DNA of 64,000 nucleotides from Porpolomopsis calyptriformis (taxonomy: Eukaryota; Basidiomycota; Agaricomycetes; Agaricales; Hygrophoraceae). The notes beneath the pieces are model-generated. The model was not told where the DNA came from. It was given only the letters and a program-made list of their open reading frames with translations, and made no database searches. Numbering within the stretch: the stretch's first letter is position 1; each line of letters begins with the position of its first letter. Positions 25,713 through 55,000 of the stretch are shown one piece after another. Position numbers and translations under genes: made by a program. The stretch is from the NCBI GenBank assembly GCA_951640195.1, contig OX621166.1, positions 841,001-905,000 on the forward strand, in the 5' to 3' direction.

Positions 25713-25717
25713 CCAAT

Positions 25718-26084
25718 TGTTATAATTCGGTAGTCGAAGGCTTTACTTCTCGCATTGGAGGGGCTGATGAGGAAATAGAATTCGACTAAAGAGTGAGGGA
25801 GTTAACTAGGAATTGAACTTAACCTACTGACTAGAGGTTAGGCTTTATATACTAACTACCTGAGTCGACATGAGTCAGTCGTATGGACGATTACAAAGCG
25901 GAAAACGGAATGTGACTAGTGAAAAGTCACGAAAAGAATAGTGGAAACGGAATGTGACTTGTGAAGAGTCGGAAAGAAGGTACATGTGACTAGTCTCTAT
26001 ATACAAAGCAGTAAAGCGGAAGGGTAAACGGAATAAAGACTAATCAAGTATGACTAAAAGAAAAAGGAAAAAGTATCTGTGACA
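25718..26084 (-). repeat. E 3' LTR (367 bp)
   Basis: Minus-strand TGTCACAGATAC..ATTATAACA, against the polypurine tract GATGTGGGTGTA. Confidence 0.92.
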
Positions 26085-26165: not shown

Positions 26166-26744
26166 CTAGGATAAGTCCTTGTCAGAAATGGCAGTCGACA
26201 GGGAAATAATGTCAGCCAGGGAAGTAACGTCGTCATCGGGGATGGTGATAGGGTTCGACGACGAACCGGAGGGAATAATGAGCGGACCTGGGAAAACAGG
26301 GGGAGCAGGGGAATCAAGATGAGGAAGTACCTTTGTGATTTCCTCATGTTTTGCTTCCCAATGCTTGGCCTGTTCTCACCAGTACTTGCTCGTTCTTCTT
26401 TCTCCATCCAGACTCAACCACTGACTGTACAGTTCTTCATTCAACCTCGCGATCTCGCTCTTATAGTAATCAACATCTTTTTTCAATGACTCAATGATCT
26501 GCTCGGGTGGGATGGGTGGTGCGACAATTTCCTTGGGCCATATGGTGAGGTCCCAGTTTCATGCACGTCGGTTGTGTTGCCAGAGTTGTCCAGCGAGCTC
26601 GGCTTCACCATAAGCGGATGAGGTGGAAGCGAGAGGAGGGGGAGCGCGATGAGGGGGTTGTCCTCCTGTGGACATATGGGGAGCATGGGGTGGACGACCA
26701 CCAGTAGACTTGCGAGCAGTTTGGTGAGAGCATTTGGCGGGCAT
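26166..26744 (-). pseudogene. E third gene (ORF3) with histone H3-like N terminus
   Basis: Minus strand, same length and frame as the intact E2 copy (44366-44944). It starts MPAKCSHQTARKSTGGRPP: residues 8-16 (QTARKSTGG) equal residues 5-13 of mature histone H3, around K9. Then HMSTGGQPP, an AYGEAELAGQLWQHN segment, a coiled coil and an acidic tail (PDDDVTSLADIISLSTA). Broken by TGA at 26556-26558 and another near 26380. Placed between the chromodomain end of pol and the 3' LTR. Confidence 0.75.
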
Positions 26745-33750: not shown

Positions 33751-33751
33751 T

Positions 33752-34118
33752 TGTTATGATTCAGTAGTCGAAGGCTTTACTTCTCGCGTTGGAGGGGCTG
33801 ATGAGGAAATGGAATTCGACTAAAGAGTGAGGGAGTTAACTAGGAATCGAACTTAACCTACTGACTAGAGGTCAGGCTTTATATACTAACTACCTGAGTC
33901 AACATGAGTCAGTCGTATGGACGATTACAAAGTGGAAAACGGAATGTGACTAGTGAAAAGTCACGAAAAGAATAGTGGAAACGGAATGTGACTCGTGAAG
34001 AGTCGGAAAGAAGGTACATGTGACTAGTCTCTATATACAAAGTGGTAAAGCGGAAGGGTAAATGGAATAAAGACTAATCAAGTATGACTAAAAGAAAAAG
34101 GAAAAAGTATCCATGACA
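33752..34118 (-). repeat. E 5' LTR (367 bp)
   Basis: Minus-strand TGTCATGGATAC..AATCATAACA with TATATAAAG (plus-strand ctttatata, about 33878-33886) as the promoter element. Followed by TSD ccaat. Confidence 0.92.
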
Positions 34119-36700: not shown

Positions 36701-37279
36701 TGTCACGGACACTTTTTTCTTTTTCCCTTTAGTCATACTTGATTAGTCTCCTTTCCGTTCATCCTTCCGCTTTACCGTTTTATATATAGAGACTGATCAC
36801 ATGTACCTTCCTTCTGACTCTTCACGAGTCACGTTCCGTTTCCGTTATTCTTTTTGTGACTCTTCACTAGTCACATTCCGAATTCCGCTTTGTAATCGTA
36901 CATATGACTGACTCATGGCGACTCAGGTAGTTAGTATATAAAGCCTGACCTCTAGTCAGTAGGTTAAGTTCGATTCCTAGTTAGCTCCCTGTCACGGATC
37001 TGAAATTCGAGACATGAGATCGAGCGCGCCTGTGGCCGTCTCTCATGCACGTTGAGCAGATTCCAGCCAGTCACGTGTAACTTGGTATATATACTGGGAA
37101 CAACCGAACTGGGTAAGTCCAGTTCTGCGACGTTTTGGCTCAGTGGTCTGAGCCGTTGCCAAGATGCGCACGTTCCCAGTGCAATTCTTAACACTCCCCC
37201 ACTCTTTAGTCGAATTCCATTTCCCTCATCAGCCCCTCCAACGCGAGAAGTAAAACCCTTTGACTACCGAATCATAACA
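36701..37279 (+). repeat. E2 5' LTR (split by repeat L)
   Basis: TGTCACGGACAC..AATCATAACA; about 370 bp after removing L and one TSD, against 367 in E. TATATAAAG at 36935-36943; transcript-start site sequence AAGTTCGATTC at 36966-36976. Confidence 0.88.
36990..37193 (+). repeat. Repeat L: 204-bp solo LTR-like insert
   Basis: TGTCACGGATCTG..TTCTTAACA with TSD ctccc (36985-36989; 37194-37198). Its first 36 bp match the repeat starting at 63085, with only C/T and G/A differences. Near the 3' end is GGCTCAGTGGTCTGAGCC (D-arm-like hairpin with an A-box core), followed about 35 nt later by GTGCAATTC, one mismatch from a Pol III B box. It could be a solo LTR or a tRNA-related short element. Confidence 0.82.
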
Positions 37280-37280
37280 A

Positions 37281-40075: not shown

Positions 40076-40683
40076 CCGGACTCCCCCAGCCAATCCGAAT
40101 GCGGATTTATTTGATGGACAACATGCCATCGACCTTGCTGGACTGGATGACGAAAGCGGCCCAGTTCGAGGAACAGTACCAGGAGCAACAAGCTGAACAA
40201 GCGTTGTGGTCAAGTCGAGACCAAAAAGGAAAGAAGTCTGAAGCCAAATCGAATCCCCGAGGAAACCCTTCCCGCTCCACCACCACCACTTCATCCCCGA
40301 TCAAACAAGAATCGAGAGAAGCCTCTCTCAAGACAGCGAAACGAGACAACTCCTCTATCACTTGCTACAACTGTGGCAAAAAGGGACATTACGCCAACGA
40401 ATGTCGAAGCCCACGTGCTGAAGACGTTCCGGCACGTCAAGAATCCTCAACTTCTACTCGAGGAAAAGGAGGAAATCGCGGTCGAGGCAAAGGACGAAAT
40501 GTCCGAATGATCAATCAGGTTGATACAGAAGAATCAGAAGCGCGGATAGAGGAAGTACCAGAGGATGACGAAAAAGAGAAAAGGACGGCAAAAGACGACT
40601 TGAAGGATATGGGAATCGCGAATTGGGACAAGGAGAGACGGGCTGCGCTAGCTCGAGCGTTAAAAGAGCAAAAGGATTTTTAA
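40076..40683 (+). pseudogene. E2 gag, C-terminal part
   Basis: Resumes after M: PIRMRIYLMDNMPSTLLDW, basic linker, zinc knuckle CYNCGKKGHYANEC (about 40363-40404), GKGGNRGRGKGRN, acidic stretch, NWDKERRAALARALKEQKDF and TAA at 40681-40683. No stop in this half. The pol frame (-1 relative to gag) is already open from 40623, so gag and pol overlap by at least 60 nt, consistent with -1 frameshifting. Confidence 0.87.
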
Positions 40684-43600
40684 TCTGGCCAAGTGCTAAA
40701 TGCCCGAGCACTTTGGCTGTGTCCCATGTATGTGTACCACCATCTATGAAAAGTTTTTGTTTTCTTGGCACACTTGAACAGGGCAAAGGCGCTCTCGAAT
40801 TCTATCTTTGGATCACGAGTGCCGACAATCTTCGACGAGTGGCTATCATAGCACTCATTGACTCTGGCGCCTCAGGGAATTTTATTGACGAAGCATTCGT
40901 TCGTCAAATGGAGATATCGACCTATCCGTTGGATGAGGTTGTACCGGTACAAAACGCTGATGGTTCCGAGAACCGAGGAGGTCCCATCACACACGACACA
41001 GACCTGTTTATCGAGGCACCAGATTTATCTTTTCGAGAACGAATCCGGTTGGAGGTCACCAACTTAGGAAGAAAGCAACAGGTCATCCTCGGCTTCCCAT
41101 GGCTCTTGCGACACAACCCTACCATCAATTGGACAAAAGGCATCTTAACCTTTGCGTCTGGTGACACGCTGTTCAGTAGTATGCAAGTCGGAGTGTTGCC
41201 CCCACAGGAAGAACTCTACGTCTTTGATTCGAGTCTGAAACATGACTCCTTTATCCGTTTGGTTGGAGTTGACCACTCCCGACCAGTTTCCATCGAGGAG
41301 GACATCAAATCCTTCATTCCCAGTCGTTATCACAATTTCTGGCGTGTTTTCCATACCGCAGAATTCAACAAACTTCCTCCTCGACGTCCCTTCGATCATG
41401 CGATCAACCTCTACCCGAACACCAAATTTCAAGTCAGAAAACTTTACCCCCTTTCTCCCTATGAACAAGTGGAACTTAATAAGTTTATTGACGAAAATCT
41501 CAGAACAGGTCAGATACGTCCATCGAAATCGCCACAGGCTGCTCCTTTCTTCTTTGCGAAAAAGGCTGAAGAGATCAATGCCAAAGGTCTCAGTGCTGGT
41601 CTACGTCCCATCCAGGACTATCGCTACATCAACTCGAAAACCATTCCTGATCGTTATCCCCTCCCCCTTCTATCGGAAATCCTCCAAGTACCGAAGCTTG
41701 CTACTGCTTCACTTTTTACTGTTATCGATATTCGATGGGGATTTAACAACATACGACTCAAGGAAGGCGACGAATGGAAGGCAGCCTTCATCACCAATCG
41801 AGGACTCTTTGAACCGACCGTTATGTTCTTTGGACTACGAAACTCCCCAGCATCTTTTCAACGAATGATAGACGTTCTCTTTAAACCCGTTCTAGACTCT
41901 GGCTGTGTTCACATCTATATTGACGACATTCTTATTATGGGCGACACCCCCGAAGAAATCCGCCACTGGACTGACGAAACCCTTAAACTCATGGAGAAGA
42001 ATCAACTATCCGCCAAACCTGTCAAATGCCAAATGGAGAAGACCTCTGTTACATACCTTGGTACGATCATCAGTAAAGGTCAACTCGCTATCAACCCAAA
42101 AAAGGTAGACGCCATTATCAATTGGCCAACACCGCAAAAACTGCGAGACCTCCAGTCCTTCCTTGGCACCACCAACTTCTGGCGTCGTTACATTAAAAGT
42201 TTCTCCTCAGTCGTTCGTCCCCTCTGCGGACTTTTGCGGAAGGACCAACCTTGGGATTGGTCTCCTTTGTGTCAAAAAGCCTTTGAACAACTCAAATATC
42301 TCGTCACTACAGCCCCTGTCCTTCTTACCCCGTGGCCGGACCTTCCTTACCTCCTGGAGACCGATGCCTCCAATTTCGGTATTAGCGCGGTCTTATCTCA
42401 GAAACACGACAATGGTTGGCACCCTGTTGGCTTTTTCTCGAAGTCCCTACTCCCTGCCGAATACAACTATCCTACCCATGACCTGGAGATGCTTGTGATC
42501 GTCACTTCCCTCAAGTATTGGCGCTATCTTTTAGAGGGCACAAGGGATACTGTATTGATAAAAACAGACAATTTAGCGCTGAAGTATTTCATGCAGAACA
42601 GATCCCTCTCCAGACGACAAGCACGTTGGATGGAATTCTTAGGCAGATTCGACTTCAAGATCGAGTATTCTCCTGGAGTCAAGAACAAAGCTGATGGACT
42701 CTCTCACCGACCCGACCACCGTCGTACAGAAAAAGAAGAATTAGAAGGCCAAGCCCTCCTCCCCCCTGAACGTTTCATCAATGCTATCATTTCCATGTCC
42801 GAACCCTCTTTCATGTCAAGACTTCGCTTCCCCGACTTCAACCAAATCCCAGAGGACATTCGCATCAAGTTATCTGATCCCTCTTCTGGCTACTCCTTCA
42901 CTGACGGAATTGTGAGAGATGCAGGAGATCGTATTGTTGTGCCAGCAGATGTATCGCTACGCACAGAGATAATTCGATTGACCCACTCCCTACCCCATGG
43001 AGGCCATCCCGGAATCGAGAAGACACGTGAGCTTGTGTTGCGGAACTACACCTGGAGTAGTGCTGCCCCTGACATCCGTGTATTCGTATCGTCCTGTCCG
43101 ACCTGCCAACAAGTCAAGCTCTATCCTTCGAAGCCTGCAGGTCTCCTGGAACCCATTCCCCCTTCATCTCGACCTTGGGAAGAAATCACCGCCGATCTAA
43201 TCGTGGAACTCCCCCAATCATCTGGCTACGATGCTGTCTTAGTCGTTGTCGATCGCTTTACCAAACGCGCTCACTTTATCCCGACGACATCGAATATTTC
43301 TGCAGAAGGAGTCGCAAAACTCTTCAGGGACAATATATGGAAACACCACAGTTGGCCAAAGAAGATCGTAACCGATCGAGGAACTCAGTTCGCCTCCAAA
43401 TTCGCGAAAGCTCTCAACACTCATCTGGGAATCATCTCCAGTCTGTCCACCGCTTATCATCCCCAAACTGATGGTCAAACGGAATGCACCAATCAAGAAC
43501 TTGAACAATACCTTCGTTTATATACAAACTTTATGCAAGACGATTGGTCCAACTGGCTATCCCCAGCTGAATTCACGTATAACAACTGACAACACTCCTC

Positions 43601-44243
43601 GACGAAACACACTCCCTTTTACCTTGATACTGGCCAACATCCCTTCATCCCATCTATCCCTGCGATCCCTACTTCCAATCCCGCAGCAGATGCCTTTCAC
43701 GATCATCTCACAGAAGCCCGCGAAGAAGCCACAAAAGCTCTAGAAACAACGGCCGAAACCATGAAACGCTTCGCAGATCGTAAACGGAAAGATACCCAAC
43801 TCCAAATAGGTCAATTTGTTTATCTTGATACCCGTAACTTAAAAACAGGTCGTCCAACCCTCAAACTTGATGTCCGACGTACTGGACCATTCAAAGTTCT
43901 AGAAAAAATCGGAAAAGTCTCTTATCGCCTGGCCCTTCCCTTATCATGGAAAATACACGACGTCTTTCACGTTTCACTCCTGAGACCTGCTAACATTAAC
44001 TCCGATCTCCATCCAGAGGAAGTAGATGATAATCTCCGTCCACCTCCGGATGTCATTCAAGAGAAAGAAGAATACGAGGTCGAACAAATTCTCCAACACC
44101 ACGGGTCTACCCGACGTCATACGTATTTGGTCAAATGGGTCAGCTATCCCATTGAAGAAGCAACCTGGGAGCCGAAGAAGAACCTCCTCCATGCGAAAGA
44201 ACGAATTCTAGAATACGAACACTCAATTCAAACGGCGACCTAA
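40623..44243 (+). pseudogene. E2 Pol: protease to chromodomain (one stop)
   Basis: Open from 40623 to a single TGA at 43587-43589, then open to 44243. Protease LIDSGASGNFIDEAF; RT with IQDYRYINSKT and YIDD at 41916-41927; RNase H LLETDASNFGIS; integrase finger SCPTCQQVK, catalytic ITADLIVELP, TDRGTQF and the Glu of QTECTNQELEQY (Cys replaces the usual Arg); DVFHVSLLRP; chromodomain (about 44060-44215) EYEVEQILQHHG, TYLVKWVSYPIEEATWE. The TGA sits where G has CGA. The best-preserved pol in the window apart from G. Confidence 0.9.
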
Positions 44244-44365: not shown

Positions 44366-44944
44366 ATGCCCGCAGAACGCTCACACCAAACTGCTCGCAA
44401 GTCTACTGGTAGTTGTCCACCCCGCGCTCCTCATATGTCCACTGGAGGACAACCCCCTCGCCGCGCTCTCCCTCCGCTCGCTTCCACCTCCTCTGCCTAC
44501 GGTGAAGCTGAGCTTGCCGGACAACTCTGGCAACATAACCGTCACGCGCGTAACCGGGACCTTCCCATATGGCCAGAAGAAATCGTCGCGCCACCCATCC
44601 CACCTGAGCAAATCATCGAGTCGTTACAGAAGGATGTCGAATACTACAAAAACGAAATCGCGAGATTGAACGAGGAATTGTATAATCAAGGAATGAGCTT
44701 GGATGGAAAGAGAAGAGCGAGTGAGTATTGGCGAGAACAGGCCAAACACTGGGAGACGAAATACGAGGAAGTCGTAAAGGTACTTCCCCATCTTGATTCC
44801 CCGGTTCCTCCTGTTTTCCCAGGTCCGCTCATCATTCCCCCCGGTTCGTCGTCGAACCCCATCACCATCCCCGACGACGACGATACTTCCCTGGCCGACA
44901 TTATTTCCCTGTCGACCGCCGTCTCCGACAAGGACTTAATCTAG
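44366..44944 (+). CDS. E2 third gene (ORF3) with histone H3-like N terminus, intact
   Basis: 192 aa. I chose ATG 44366 because E starts at the same place. Residues 8-15 are QTARKSTG (44387-44410), identical to residues 5-12 of mature histone H3, including the K9 position in ARKS; the following CPPRAP parallels GKAPRK in spacing of the Arg. Then LASTSSAYGEAELAGQLWQHN, an IWPEEIVAPPIPPEQI linker, a coiled coil (about residues 87-145) and an acidic end. It lies 122 nt after pol and just before the polypurine tract. Role unknown; binding by chromodomains or H3K9 modifiers is an inference. Confidence 0.78.
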   Translation: MPAERSHQTARKSTGSCPPRAPHMSTGGQPPRRALPPLASTSSAYGEAELAGQLWQHNRHARNRDLPIWPEEIVAPPIPPEQIIESLQKDVEYYKNEIARLNEELYNQGMSLDGKRRASEYWREQAKHWETKYEEVVKVLPHLDSPVPPVFPGPLIIPPGSSSNPITIPDDDDTSLADIISLSTAVSDKDLI

Positions 44945-45026
44945 TCCTTCCCCTCCTCCGCACCCGTCAACACTCTCAAAGCTGCCTCGAATTTCGAGAC
45001 GAAATTCCTTTTAGTGTGGGTGTATG

Positions 45027-45385
45027 TGTCAGAGATATATTTTTTCCTTTTCCTTTGCTCGTCTATTCCCATTTACATCAGACAGTTTACACCAATAGCC
45101 GCTTAGCCACCCAAACTCCGCTTAGTAATACAAGGTAACCAAGCCATATCTATATTTAGTCAACCATCACTCTCCTTATCTACATGACTCATCCATAGTC
45201 GTTACGACTCACACGTAGTCAATATGACTCATACTTAGCTAGTATATAAAGCTAGCAGTAGATAGACTTAGGATAAGTCTGTTTCTTTCGTTAACACCCC
45301 AATCAGTAGTCTTCCAACCCTTTAAAACCCTACACCCAGAGCCTGAAGTAAAACCTTGCGATCAACCCTAGACTGCCGTCTAACA
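45027..45385 (+). repeat. G 5' LTR (359 bp)
   Basis: TGTCAGAGATAT..CGTCTAACA. TATATAAA at 45243-45250; 32 nt later AAGTCTGTTTC (45275-45285), the partner of the priming site. Confidence 0.93.
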
Positions 45386-45386
45386 A

Positions 45387-45397
45387 GAAACAGACTT
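45387..45397 (+). promoter_or_regulatory. G self-priming site
   Basis: GAAACAGACTT, one base after the LTR, complementary to AAGTCTGTTTC (45275-45285); pairing can extend to 13 nt (AAGAAACAGACTT). Confidence 0.8.
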
Positions 45398-49900: not shown

Positions 49901-50565
49901 ACCGAGAACATTCCTCCACTCACCAATCCCCCTTCTGGCTTGAATATGGCCGACACCCTCACACCCCCTTATCAGTTCCAACCCAAACCTCAAATCCCAA
50001 TGCCAACGAGTTTTACGTGCAGCTTACTAGAGCTAGAGAGAACGCTGAAGAGTCTCTTCAAAAGACCGCTAACTCAATGAAGCTCTATGCCGATCGAAAA
50101 CGTCAAAAGGAACCCACGTTTTACGAAGGACAAAGGGTCTGGCTTGATGCCAAGAATTTGAAAACTGGCCGGCCCGCAAAGAAACTGGATGTCCGCCGGC
50201 TCGGACCTTTTATAATTCTAAAACAAGTATCGCCTGTGGCTTACCGACTAAAGCTACCGCTGTCATGGAGGATTCATCCCGTGTTTCACGTTTCGCTACT
50301 CAAGGCTCTAGAAGAGAATCTCGATCTCCACCCCCCGATCGGAGAAGATGATAATCTCCGACCACCTCCAGATGTGATTGAAGGAGAGCCCGAGTATGAA
50401 GTGGAACGTATTCTCAATCACACCCCAGGAAAACGGAACCGACAATACCTAATCAAGTGGAAAGGCTACCCAATAGAGGCAGCCACCTGGGAACCACGAT
50501 GGAACCTCAAGCACGCAAAAGATGTCTTAATGAATTATGAAAAGTCTATTCAAGCGGCGATTTAA
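46984..50565 (+). pseudogene. G Pol: protease to chromodomain
   Basis: Protease LIDSGASGCFINWNF; RT with IQDYRYLNAHT; a TGA at 48163-48165 in the FQ-RMIDVLF box; active site YIDN (48217-48228) where the family has YIDD; RNase H LLETDASGVALGAVL; integrase finger SCLACQQTK, catalytic ITADLIVELP, TDRGTQFSLKF, ERTNQELEQY; DVRRLGPFIIL; HPVFHVSLLKA; chromodomain (about 50390-50550) EYEVERILNHTPG, YLIKWKGYPIEAATWE. With only these two lesions the copy is near-complete, but the Asp to Asn change should abolish polymerase activity. Confidence 0.92.
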
Positions 50566-50679: not shown

Positions 50680-51372
50680 ATGCCCCGCCAAGTTCTTTAT
50701 GCTCGCAAGTCGACTGGGAGGCGTCCACCTCGAGGGAATCCCACCGCTTCTACCTCCAACCTCCCCCCCGATTCTTCTTCCTCCTCTTCCTCGTCCGACA
50801 GTGTCTTGGTTACCCGACGGTTCAAGAAGCCGAAACGACGTACCGATACTATCGACAAGCCAGGATGAAACTGTAACTACCGAGGGCTCCCCTTTGCCAA
50901 GGTTGAGCACCTATCTGGGTGCCCCGAAACCTATGTCCCTTTTATCTCTGGAGCACGTCGATGCGAACTTAACTATGACCGTCACTGGTACACGTTCGAC
51001 AAGGACAGCGACTTTGACGACAAGAAGAATCAACTCAAAGATTGGCTGGAGGCGTACCAAGTTGGGCGCCAACTTTTGATGGTTATACCGGACCAGGACG
51101 AATCCGACGTCACCACCCCCACTATCCCCGAAGACCCCATCTCGCACCGCATCCATCGCGTCGCCGACCGACTCTATGCTGCCCGAAACGGGTACCGCTC
51201 GATGATGGATGCCAAGTACGAAAGGATCCTTGACCTGGAGGAGAATGCTGTGATGTGTAGGGAGCTGGCTGAAACTTGGTTGCGACGTGCCCGGGAGTTG
51301 GATGGCCGTTACCACTGGTTTGACCCAGATGGACACCTGCTTCAACCCCCAGTTTATGATGGCGCGACCTAG
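50680..51372 (+). pseudogene. G third gene (ORF3) with H3-like N terminus
   Basis: ATG 50680: MPRQVLYARKSTGRRPPRGN. ARKSTG equals H3 residues 7-12, and Arg-Pro-Pro-Arg falls where H3 has Lys-Ala-Pro-Arg. Then a Ser run, a basic patch (RRFKKPKRRTD), TGA at 50866-50868 (expected Arg), and a C-terminal helical domain (DRLYAARNGYRSMMDAKYER, CRELAETWLRRARELDGRYH). About 230 aa if read through. Same position as ORF3 in D and E but clearly diverged. Confidence 0.72.
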
Positions 51373-51651
51373 GGACCGGATGCTGTTTCCGAACGAACAG
51401 TATTCCTTACGCCTCCCTTCTGGATGTGTGGTTAGAGAAGGTGATATCTACTGGAGAGTTGAGGAAAAGTATACCTAGTGGATAGTCTTTGATCCGACAA
51501 CTATCCACTCATCCCTCCTCTTCATCGCTCACCCATCTCATCACCCCTCTACCCACCTCTACCATCCCTTTACACCTCCCCTTGACACCCTTCCTTCGCT
51601 TCGAAGGGTCTCCTCAAAATTCGGGACGAATTTCCTTTTTGTGGAGGTGAA

Positions 51652-52010
51652 TGTCAGAGATATATTTTTTCCTTTTCCTTTGCTTGTCTATTCCCATTTA
51701 CATCAGACAGTTTACACCAATAGCCGCTTAGCCACCCAAACTCCGCTTAGTAATACAAGGTGACCAAGCCATATCTATATTTAGTCAACCATCACTCTCC
51801 TTATCTACATGACTCATCCATAGTCGTTACGACTCACACGTAGTCAATATGACTCATACTTAGCTAGTATATAAAGCTAGCAGTAGATAGACTTAGGATA
51901 AGTCTGTTTCTTTCGTTAACACCCCAATCAGTAGTCTTCCAACCCTTTAAAACCCTACACCCAGAGCCTGAAGTAAAACCTTGCGATCAACCCTAGACTG
52001 CCGTCTAACA
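51652..52010 (+). repeat. G 3' LTR (359 bp)
   Basis: Preceded by the purine tract GTGGAGGTGAA. Differs from the 5' LTR by one C/T and one A/G that I can see. Confidence 0.93.
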
Positions 52011-55000
52011 GGAAGTGACCAATCTCGGATCTAAGATGGATATTATCCTCAGCTTCCCGTGGCTCAAAAAGCACAACCCCAACATCGATTAGAAAGAGGC
52101 AACACTGGCTCTGGATAGCAAAGATTTCCCTCTTCCATGATGGATAGTTGATGATGCAGAGTCACCGGGAATGGAATCGGTCACGCTGGCCATGAATCGA
52201 CGTGTATCGAAGTTGGATGAATCCCAAGCCAGCACTGTGGAAGAAGATATGTGAAAGTTTGTACCAGAGGTATACTGGAAAGACTATTCTAGTGTCTTTG
52301 CCAAAGAATCCTTCGACTGCCTTCCACCGCATTCAGAATTTGACCACGCCATAGAACTGGATGAAACCTTCAAACCAGTCAAAGGCGCGAAATACGCAAT
52401 ATCCCCTCTTGAGATGGATCACTTATACAAGTTCATCGACGAAAACTTGTCTACTGGACAAATACGAACTTCTAAGTCAAAACAGGTCTCTCTGTTCTTT
52501 TTTGGAAAGAAAGCTGAAGAAGTAAATGCTAAAGGAAAAAGCGCTGGTCTACACCCTATTGAAGACTATCGCTACCTCAATGAACACACAGTCCCTGACC
52601 ATTATCCCCTTCCCCTACTTCATCAAATCCTCCAATGACCAAAACTCTTAACAGCATCCTTATTCATGGTCATGGATATCCAATGGGGATTCAACAACAT
52701 CAGGATCAAGGAAGGCAATGAATGGAAAGCTGCTTTCATCACTGAAGCAGGCGCCTTCGAACCCACTGTTATGTTCTTTAGTTTACAGAACTCCCCAGCC
52801 ACCTTTCAACGGATGATCAACACAAGGTTCAAAGAAGTCCTGAACTCTGGGAATGTTTTCATCTATATCGATGATGTGCTTGTTTGTGGAGATGATTTAC
52901 AGGAACTGCGATACTGGACTTTCAAAACTCTGGATATTATGAAGAGACACAGTCTCTCATGTAAACCCATCAAGTGCCAATTTGAGAAGGAAGAAGTTAT
53001 TTATCTAGGAGTCGTCTTATCCAAAGGACGAATCACCACCAACCCGAAGAAGGTCAACGCTATTATGTCCTGGCCTATTCCAGAAACAGTGAAACAACTC
53101 CAATCCTTCTTAGGCAGTGCAAACTTTTGGCGAAGATACATCAAGGGTTTCTCCAAGGTCACTACCCCTCTCTACGAACTCTTACACAATGAAACTGTGT
53201 GGGAATGGACCCCTCGAAGACAAGAAGCCTTCGACAACATCAAATCCCTTTTGACGAATGCACCTGTCCTTCATATTCCTGATCGCGATCTCTCTTACTG
53301 TCTAGAAACTGACGCCTCTATTATTGGAATCGCAGGAATACTCTCCCAGCTTCACGGCGGACACTGGAAACCTGTTGGCTACCATTCAAGATCTACTTCC
53401 CCTGCTGAAAAGAACTATCCAACTCACGATCTGGAGCTCCTGGTAATCATTGATTCCTTCAAACAATGGCGCCGTCTTCTCGAAGGAGCGAGACACAATA
53501 TTCTCATTAGAACAGACAGTTTGGCCTTGTGATACTTCTCCAAGAATCTTTGTTTATCGAATCGCCAGACTCATTGGTCTGAGTATCTGTCCAGATTTGG
53601 ATTCAAAATCAAGTATGTTCCAGGTAGGAAGAACAAGGCCGACGGCCTGTCCAGGCACCCCGATTACTTACCTGGCATCGAAGCCGACGTGGAGAACGAA
53701 GTTCTGATAGCGCGCGACCGATGGATTAATTCGATTGTCAAGTTGTCAAATTCAAGTCTTCTTTCTAGGTTACGCTTCAAAATCCCACTCCCACAGAAGA
53801 TCCAAGATAAACTCGAGGATGCCTCACTTGCTTGGACCCAAGCCAATGGGCTTGTTCGCAATGTTGAAGGTCGAATAGTGGTGCCAGAGGAAGTATCTTT
53901 GCGCACAGACATTATACGACTGTCCCACACTTACCCCCACGCTGGCCACCCTGGCATTGAGAAGATGAAGGAACTCGTTCTTCGTAACTTTATCTGGGAT
54001 GGTGCCCCACAAGACATCACCAACTACGTTCAATCCTGCCCCGCTTGTCAATAAAATAAGAACTTCCCTTTGAAGCCGTCAGGATTACTCCAACCCATAC
54101 CCCCTTCCACGGAACCATGGAAAGAGATTACTGTCGATCTTATCGTCGAACTCCCTAAGTCACAAGGCTATGATGCTGTAATGGTCATTGTGGATCGTTT
54201 CACTAAACGAGCCCATTTCATTCCAACAACTTCCAATCTTTTATCAGAAGGTGCTGCGAAACTCTTTCAGAATCACATCTGGAAACACCATGGATGGCCT
54301 CAAAAGGTTATATCTGATCGTGGAGTACAATTCGCGTCAAAGTTCACAGAAGCCCTCAATAACTCCCTAGGAATCATCTCCGGTCTCTCCACTACATACC
54401 ATCCCCAAACAGATGGTCAAACAGAACGTACTAATCAAGAACTCGAAGTTTACTTATGTTTCTATACCAACTTTATGCAAGATGACTGGTCAGAATGGCT
54501 CGCTTCTGTGGAATTTGCCTATAACAATTGACAACACTCTGCAACTTCACAATCACCATTCTATATGGAATACAGACGTCATCCCCACCTCCCCACAACT
54601 ATTCCAGATCAAAGCAACGTGCCCGCAGCCAACACCTTTCACAAACACCTCACATGCGCACAGCAAAATGCCGAATGATCTTTACAGAAGACAACAGAAT
54701 CGATGAAGAAATATGCTGATCGCAAATGGAAACCTTCACCCTCCTACGAAGAAGGAGATCTAGTCTGGTTGGACACCAAAAATATCAAGATGACATAACC
54801 CTCAAAGAAACTCGATAATCGATGGACCAGACCATTCAAGGTCTTGAAGAAGATATTGGACCTTGCTTATCTGATCGACATCCCCGGAACATGGAGACTA
54901 CACCCAGTCTTTCACGTTTCACTCCTGAGACCCAACGTCAGAAATGAATTGCTCCATCCTAATGTCATCGACACATCATGGCCTCCTCCTGATCTGATCG

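Follow-up and report, generated by a model that had tools for sequence, protein, structure and literature searches.

H3K9 methylation silences transposons, and it is presumably also the mark by which chromodomain retrotransposons select their integration sites. The window, a 64,000-nucleotide stretch of DNA (C4:841001-905000) from a genome of 33.5 Mb in 17 contigs that looks fungal by its size, its intron-bearing H3 genes and its elements, holds three elements of this kind, E2, E and G, in which a third gene, ORF3, follows pol. The question raised by this locus is why the protein encoded by that gene should begin like histone H3.

Organization of the elements and position of ORF3

The features of the three elements within the window are the following.

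25717..26084, minus strand: 3' LTR of E, 96.2% identical to 33751-34118
26166..26744, minus strand: ORF3 of E, starting at 26744, with two in-frame stops further on
26723-26697, minus strand: QTARKSTGG in the ORF3 of E
33751..34118, minus strand: 5' LTR of E, the partner of 25717..26084
36701..36990 (first part) and 37193-37280 (second part), plus strand: E-type 5' LTR of E2, 89-93% identical to E LTRs
43587..43589, plus strand: in-frame stop in the pol of E2; the ORFs 40569-43589 and 43590-44243 share one frame
44067..44240, plus strand: chromodomain at the C terminus of the E2 pol (Pfam Chromo, E 6.8e-13)
44366..44944, plus strand: ORF3 of E2, with ATG at 44366, 192 codons and a stop ending at 44944
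44378..44425, plus strand: H3-like tail of the E2 ORF3, residues 5-20 set against H3 residues 2-17
44387-44410, plus strand: exact QTARKSTG in the E2 tail, with the K9-equivalent codon at 44399-44401
44429..44467, plus strand: second H3-like unit of the E2 ORF3, PHMSTGGQPPRRA, with Met at the K9 position and Gln at the K14 position
44603..44782, plus strand: two predicted helices, E2 ORF3 residues 80-107 and 112-139 (AlphaFold2 single-sequence model, block pLDDT 76-89)
44985..45389, plus strand: 5' LTR of G, also lying 3' of the E2 ORF3, 96.8% identical to 51612-52014
50395..50562, plus strand: chromodomain at the C terminus of the G pol (Pfam Chromo, E 7.1e-15)
50680..51372, plus strand: ORF3 of G; a TGA at 50866-50868 interrupts the frame in the window copy
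50701..50733, plus strand: tail of the G ORF3, ARKSTGRRPPR
51612..52014, plus strand: 3' LTR of G, the pair of 44985..45389

The family of E and E2, like G, has the make-up of Ty3/gypsy chromoviruses, with RT/RNase H, integrase and a C-terminal chromodomain in pol and flanking LTRs. In the G pol, RT_RNaseH, Integrase_H2C2, SH3_Tf2-1 and Chromo score above the Pfam cut-off, and RVT_1 and rve fall slightly under it. The C-terminal piece of the E2 pol contains SH3_Tf2-1 and Chromo by Pfam, and the piece preceding it is 66% identical to G over 581 aa. The pol that precedes the E ORF3 has 45 aa of chromodomain and then a stop. The initial annotation placed all three ORF3 genes right after a pol with a chromodomain, and this is borne out by Pfam for E2 and G and by these 45 aa for E.

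The ORF3 of E2 starts 122 nt past the pol stop in a different frame. Its protein begins MPAERSHQTARKSTGSCPPR (also given as MPAERSHQTARKSTGSCPPRAPHMSTGGQPPRR), that of E begins MPAKCSHQTARKSTGGRPPH, and that of G begins MPRQVLYARKSTGRRPPRGNP, also given as MPRQVLYARKSTGRRPPR. Other E copies (L003-L008) have an E-type LTR ~80 nt past the ORF3 end, which makes ORF3 an internal gene of the element, with pol on one side and the 3' LTR on the other. In E2 itself the 5' LTR is of E type, but the LTR that comes immediately after ORF3 is of G type (window 44945-45389); the junction common to E2 and G perhaps arose by recombination. In the AlphaFold2 model of the E2 ORF3 the N terminus has low confidence and the helical region is probably a coiled coil, such that the E ORF3 is predicted to join the tail to a helical region. 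Near the C terminus of the E2 ORF3, NPITIPDDDD (window 44855-44884) resembles a SUMO-interacting motif.

We also observed a repeated composite in several very similar copies (L019, L022, L023 and L032, and in part L020 and L031). It opens with an extended reading frame, of which 533-682 aa lie within the locus boundaries, followed by a fragment of E-type integrase (found in L019 and L022), an intact tailed E-type ORF3, and the pol and ORF3 of a further family, T. The composite of L019, L022, L023 and L032 is possibly a non-autonomous element or a nested pair.

Extent of the H3 match and its expectation by chance

The usual E tail, R-S-H-QTARKSTGG-R-PPR, is identical to H3 residues 2-17 at 12 of 16 positions in a direct reading. 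In E2 the number is 11 of 16, with S replacing the second G of the QTARKSTGG found in most E copies. The QTARKSTG of E2 and QTARKSTGG of E that the initial annotation saw at the ORF3 N termini are indeed in the sequence. The tail of G, ARKSTG-R-RPPR, has six residues in common with the E match; the RPPR reported to follow the G motif is there, but after an extra R. It had further been stated that the eight-residue match is kept in two families. ARKSTG does recur in G, but E and E2 are one family, and the eight-residue match is therefore confined to that family.

A match of this kind was argued to be unlikely by chance, and our numbers agree. A random protein of equal composition is expected to have 3.5e-6 exact 8-mers in common with H3, wherever in H3 they lie. 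A degenerate DNA pattern for QTARKSTG hits 72 places in the whole genome and the reversed control hits 0; 69 of these places are in ORF3 copies, and at the other 3 a host H3 gene begins. With the shorter ARKSTG pattern the count is 125 places, against 14 for its reversed control. The H3 tail match is thus far beyond chance.

Searching the genome with the E2 ORF3 returned at least 128 matches. Because this search scored the best candidates alone, all E copy numbers are lower bounds. The tail stretch is reached by at least 97 E copies (start at residue 8 or before), and among these 97 the exact 8-mer is encoded in 69 and missing in 28. The motif is therefore not restricted to the locus, which had been named as an outcome that would count against a functional tail.

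Conservation of the tail among copies

We compared codons in 48 E ORF3 copies together with the window's E, 49 in total, of which 47 could be used after L073 and L074 had been excluded because of their frame. Within codons 8-16, 7 variants are silent and 4 change the amino acid (2 of these 4 at CpG), and five of the nine codons are silently variable in at least 12 copies (n = 47). Among non-CpG variants found in at least 5 copies, 6 are silent and 0 change the amino acid in codons 8-16, compared to 61 and 21 outside codons 8-20. Neutral drift of the motif, the other outcome foreseen as unfavorable, is not what these copies display, since each non-CpG amino-acid change in codons 8-16 is limited to at most 2 copies. 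The comparison of the tail with the rest of ORF3 that the initial annotation proposed gave Fisher p values of 0.19, 0.18 and 0.33 at three thresholds: the tail appears constrained, yet not measurably more so than the remainder of the protein. We therefore rejected an exceptional constraint on the tail relative to ORF3.

K12, the K9-equivalent, is kept in 47 of 47 E copies although its codon varies between AAG and AAA. The neighboring R11 is kept in 38 of 47; where it is lost, C or H has replaced it, and the site is a CpG. The complete QTARKSTGG is present unchanged in 36 of the 47 copies, and an E subfamily that is 75% identical overall retains QTARKSTGGRPPR. C to T changes in E copies amount to 16% at CpG versus 4.7% elsewhere, as would fit DNA methylation of the elements. 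CpG sites decay 2.7 to 3.5 times as fast as non-CpG sites. K12 is also the sole lysine of residues 1-80 in 38 of 47 copies; we did not count this as evidence because ORF3 has few lysines. For G, the tail was seen in 19 of 20 fetched copies (L094 is without the tail region) and ARKSTG is exact in 8. The lysine is present in 19/19 tailed G copies by a pattern that itself requires it, and a pattern that does not require the lysine found the tail in 18.

The tail is separable from the ORF3 body

With the tail removed, the ORF3 proteins of E and G have no detectable relationship (hhalign probability 0.4%), and the same comparison gave 0.4% for G and T and 0.1% for E and F, the latter with the F protein's own N terminus; the alignments are shallow and these negatives correspondingly weak. 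The ORF3 bodies of E and T, in contrast, are related (hhalign 95.7%, E 1.1e-8). A new observation is that E and G have the tail in common despite ORF3 bodies without detectable relationship, while the body of E is related to that of T. The T ORF3 lacks the tail, its protein starting MSTPYSAEAQRQW, and even with an E limit of 1 Pfam shows no chromodomain in the T pol. The pol pieces of E, G and F are 51-74% identical to one another and those of T only 23-31% to them. With a related ORF3 body, no tail and no chromodomain, T is a built-in comparison family.

The fourth family, F, likewise combines a chromodomain with a third gene at the equivalent position; its protein, however, starts MPATRSTRSPSPQVAIRRSGRIPSS, without ARKS. 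We also looked at 20 chromodomain regions picked from 150 scored of 718 candidates. Fourteen have a C-terminal extension, 4 are F, 1 belongs to another element and 1 is host-like, which by motif we take to be a host chromatin remodeller. No ORF3 of this kind was in view in any of the 14 regions with the extension. Together with F, these 14 indicate that a chromodomain alone is not sufficient for the tail. E and G thus have both tail and chromodomain and T has neither, but F breaks the rule, and the numbers are too small for a test. In the F ORF3 an acidic stretch follows INVDLEYPV.

Database proteins with several H3-like tails

A protein-homologue search with the E2 ORF3 alone found nothing. 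A profile of 7 E-type ORF3 proteins, in contrast, led to one database protein, P0002 (E 1.2e-5), which carries three tails. Using P0002 as the query gave P0003 (E 1.7e-5, 4 units), P0004 (E 6.8e-3, a hypothetical protein of Daedalea quercina, 4 units), P0005 (E 0.54, 3 units) and P0006 (E 3.1, 2 units), the last two being retained despite their weak E values because of their visible motifs. Five database proteins hence carry two to four H3-like tails each, 16 units in total. Across these units H3 R2 is present in 14/16, Q5 in 13/16, and T11, G12 and P16 in 15/16 each. A7-R8-K9 is present in 16/16, as the units were picked by it. K14 occurs in 0/16 (R in 12, H in 2, Q in 1 and V in 1), and E and G also do not have K14. 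The P0004 unit KLYARKSTG is close to the VLYARKSTG of G. None of P0002-P0006 has a Pfam domain at the Pfam cut-off. The N-terminal part of P0006 looks to us like a SNAP-25-type SNARE motif, followed by its two H3-like units; Pfam shows no SNARE family in this protein.

Searches with P0004 in the source genome gave 15 weak matches (best E 0.04), by position 3 E and 12 G copies. In viral contigs A1 and P0004 had no match, and the QTARKSTG DNA pattern had none in viral or genome contigs. P0004 matched 4 loci in genome contigs (L129-L132), all ordinary eukaryotic H3 genes on contigs labelled as bacterial MAGs, and those bins therefore look contaminated. To judge by the multi-tail proteins, the putative device may occur outside the source genome as well.

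Candidate readers and writer of the tail

Sequence matches of the E2 chromodomain in the PDB are the chromodomains of Oxpecker, CDYL2 (CDYL), HP1 and Clr4. The Y/W/Y cage residues (Y24, W45 and Y48 of HP1) stand at aligned places in the E2 and G chromodomains, which by this alignment would both belong to group I (HP1-like), with cage residues as in PMC3350952. The AlphaFold2 chromodomain model is weak (pLDDT 68); a fold search with it reached no PDB entry within an E limit of 0.001, and the 50 matches listed include no chromodomain.

On the host side, a pre-SET segment on L118 matches Clr4, SUVH4 and DIM-5, and the best matches of its SET segment are SUV39H2, SETMAR and EHMT2/G9a. The host thus carries a Clr4/SUV39-like gene on L118, a further new observation, and is expected to have an H3K9 writer. 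A search for the HP1 chromoshadow domain came up empty in the genome, as it did in the control genomes.

A second unit with methionine in place of K9

The second unit of E reads [R/H]MSTGGQPPR, in which Met replaces K9. The Met is kept in 46 of 47 copies and is preceded by His in 29/47 and by Arg (CGT) in 13/47. Residues 25-31 are each conserved in no fewer than 46 copies. In the 75% identical subfamily the second unit is HMSTERQPLH, with STGG changed to STER, and the first unit is intact. A plain alternative for this Met is an internal start codon.

Discussion

Our data suggest that in E and G the third gene encodes an accessory protein of the retrotransposon, whose N-terminal tail would mimic H3 around K9. 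Recognition of the tail by the H3K9 system is the most economical reading, and we consider it probable that the tail engages an H3K9 writer or chromodomain readers, whether those of the element's own integrase or of the host. The initial annotation had proposed much the same. Its idea of a mimic gains from the retention of the tail across the genome, from the adjoining pol with a cage-bearing chromodomain and from the recurrence of the tail in database proteins; it is weakened by the 28 of 97 copies without the 8-mer and by family F, which pairs a chromodomain and a third gene with no ARKS.

Methylation, binding and effect, the steps that this reading would add to the observed match, position, retention and recurrence, can be set out as follows. 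The K9-equivalent lysine of the tail would be methylated by the host's Clr4/SUV39-like enzyme, and the methylated tail could then be bound by a chromodomain, either that of the element's own integrase or that of a host HP1-type protein. An ORF3 oligomer would present several tails. The oligomer might link the particle or pre-integration complex with the chromodomain integrase, or it might be a decoy drawing writer and readers off the element's chromatin. The pairing with a chromodomain in E and G favors the integrase, a use that is doubtful when taken singly, and the multi-tail proteins favor the decoy, which we hold as a tentative possibility; jointly the two make up the whole reading. If it is true, an element that makes an H3K9 tail of its own would add a third component, one that ties integrase to particle or disarms silencing, and histone mimicry by a transposon would become open to experiment. 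A bolder and quite unlikely version would make the E ORF3 an anti-silencing device, with the first unit as K9 substrate or chromodomain ligand, the second as a K9M-like trap for the host H3K9 methyltransferase, and the database proteins with two to four tails as multivalent decoys. We keep the K9M trap as no more than a bold reading because of the His before Met in 29/47 copies and the decay of the unit in one subfamily.

The absence of a measurable excess of constraint on the tail is what would be expected if the tail were inherited baggage, a piece of H3 coding sequence captured by an ancestral element and carried along by the overall constraint on ORF3. One host H3 gene apparently has a 25-nt exon coding QTARKSTG plus one base (splice sites were placed by eye), which makes capture of a single exon conceivable, and between one E variant and a host H3 gene there is a single mismatch over 23 nt. 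We regard this origin as rather unlikely, since G keeps the tail on an ORF3 body without detectable relationship to that of E, separate proteins carry several units, and the copies differ in silent codons and not in amino acids. Recent capture of host H3 DNA was considered as well. Six E tail variants that we tried each differ from the most similar host H3 gene at 1-3 of 23 nt. Sequences drawn with random synonymous codons get to within 1, 2 or 3 mismatches in 2.8%, 14.7% and 41% of draws, and the mismatch counts decide nothing either way. The apparently split host H3 gene is at L015 (C2:3412600-3413700), and the other two H3 genes are without the first of these introns.

The tail could also be a nuclear localization signal borrowed from H3, with H3-carrying importins bringing ORF3 and the particle into the nucleus. 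H3 1-28 is described as an NLS read by Kap123 through K14 and K23, residues of which the first is missing from the units found here; the reading stays alive because K14R is reported to have only a minor effect on H3 localization (PMC5677370). Arg stands at position 14 in 12/16 mimic units, and the E tail has further Arg residues. A Kap123-type signal would call for a basic residue at 14 and another more than 7 residues on; E copies have Arg14 in 37/47 and Arg at ORF3 residue 33 in 40/47. However, the Arg at 14, a CpG codon, is kept in those 37/47 compared to 47/47 for K9, and the second unit of E has Q there. In the Kap123 structure (PMC5677370), only H3 12-17 and 21-26 are ordered, whereas the stretch conserved here is 5-13, and a nuclear localization signal does not account for the conserved residues 5-11; we thus judge it unlikely. 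That a basic, Ser/Thr-Pro-rich tail binds RNA or Gag and resembles H3 by convergence would suit an element whose other products handle RNA, and the F tail is likewise Arg/Ser/Pro-rich without ARKS. Such a tail would need neither an exact match of 8-9 residues (chance 3.5e-6) nor P16 and R17, and we find this reading very unlikely.

Comparison with known systems

Returning to the tail as a probable H3K9 mimic, literature searches covering titles and abstract starts of the papers listed, with most subscription journals outside them, contained no H3-tail mimic in a retrotransposon. The nearest viral cases are influenza H3N2 NS1 (ARSK), SARS-CoV-2 ORF8 (ARKS) and adenovirus protein VII (PMC10208167), which likewise put a short copy of the H3 tail into an accessory protein of a virus or selfish element. 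The motifs named in the accessible part of that source are 4-5 residues long and are mentioned without a chromodomain, whereas here 9 residues are exact (12/16 over H3 2-17) in a retrotransposon and beside a chromodomain integrase. Cellular H3K9 mimics are reported among targets of G9a/EHMT (PMC10611923) and of Clr4/SUV39 (PMC9768651), with methylation reported for some. They are alike in having an H3K9-like motif as a presumed methylation substrate and HP1 ligand; those described are host regulators, and ours is an element protein known from sequence.

Swi6/HP1 is auto-inhibited by an internal H3 mimic (PMC7192584), a non-histone mimic regulating a chromodomain protein as may be the case for ORF3. 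The mimic there acts in cis within HP1, whereas here it is on a separate protein next to the chromodomain integrase. For the second unit, the parallels are H3K9M, which traps Clr4 (PMC5030085), and the cellular protein EZHIP, which carries an inhibitory K27M-like peptide (PMC6513997). What the E unit has in common with EZHIP and H3K9M/K27M is that Met takes the place of the lysine, here K9 within RMSTGG or HMSTGG; inhibition is demonstrated in those systems, whereas the E unit is a likeness in sequence that decays in one subfamily.

Closest in the element itself are MAGGY, whose chromodomain binds H3K9me2/3 (PMC3350952), and other chromoviruses, which have a Ty3/gypsy pol with a C-terminal, cage-bearing chromodomain, as do E2 and G. 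A fungal survey reports that some chromovirus elements have an additional ORF of unknown function (PMC2864245). In the available text of PMC3350952 and PMC2864245 no H3-like tail is described in an additional ORF, and it is in this tail that the elements described here differ.
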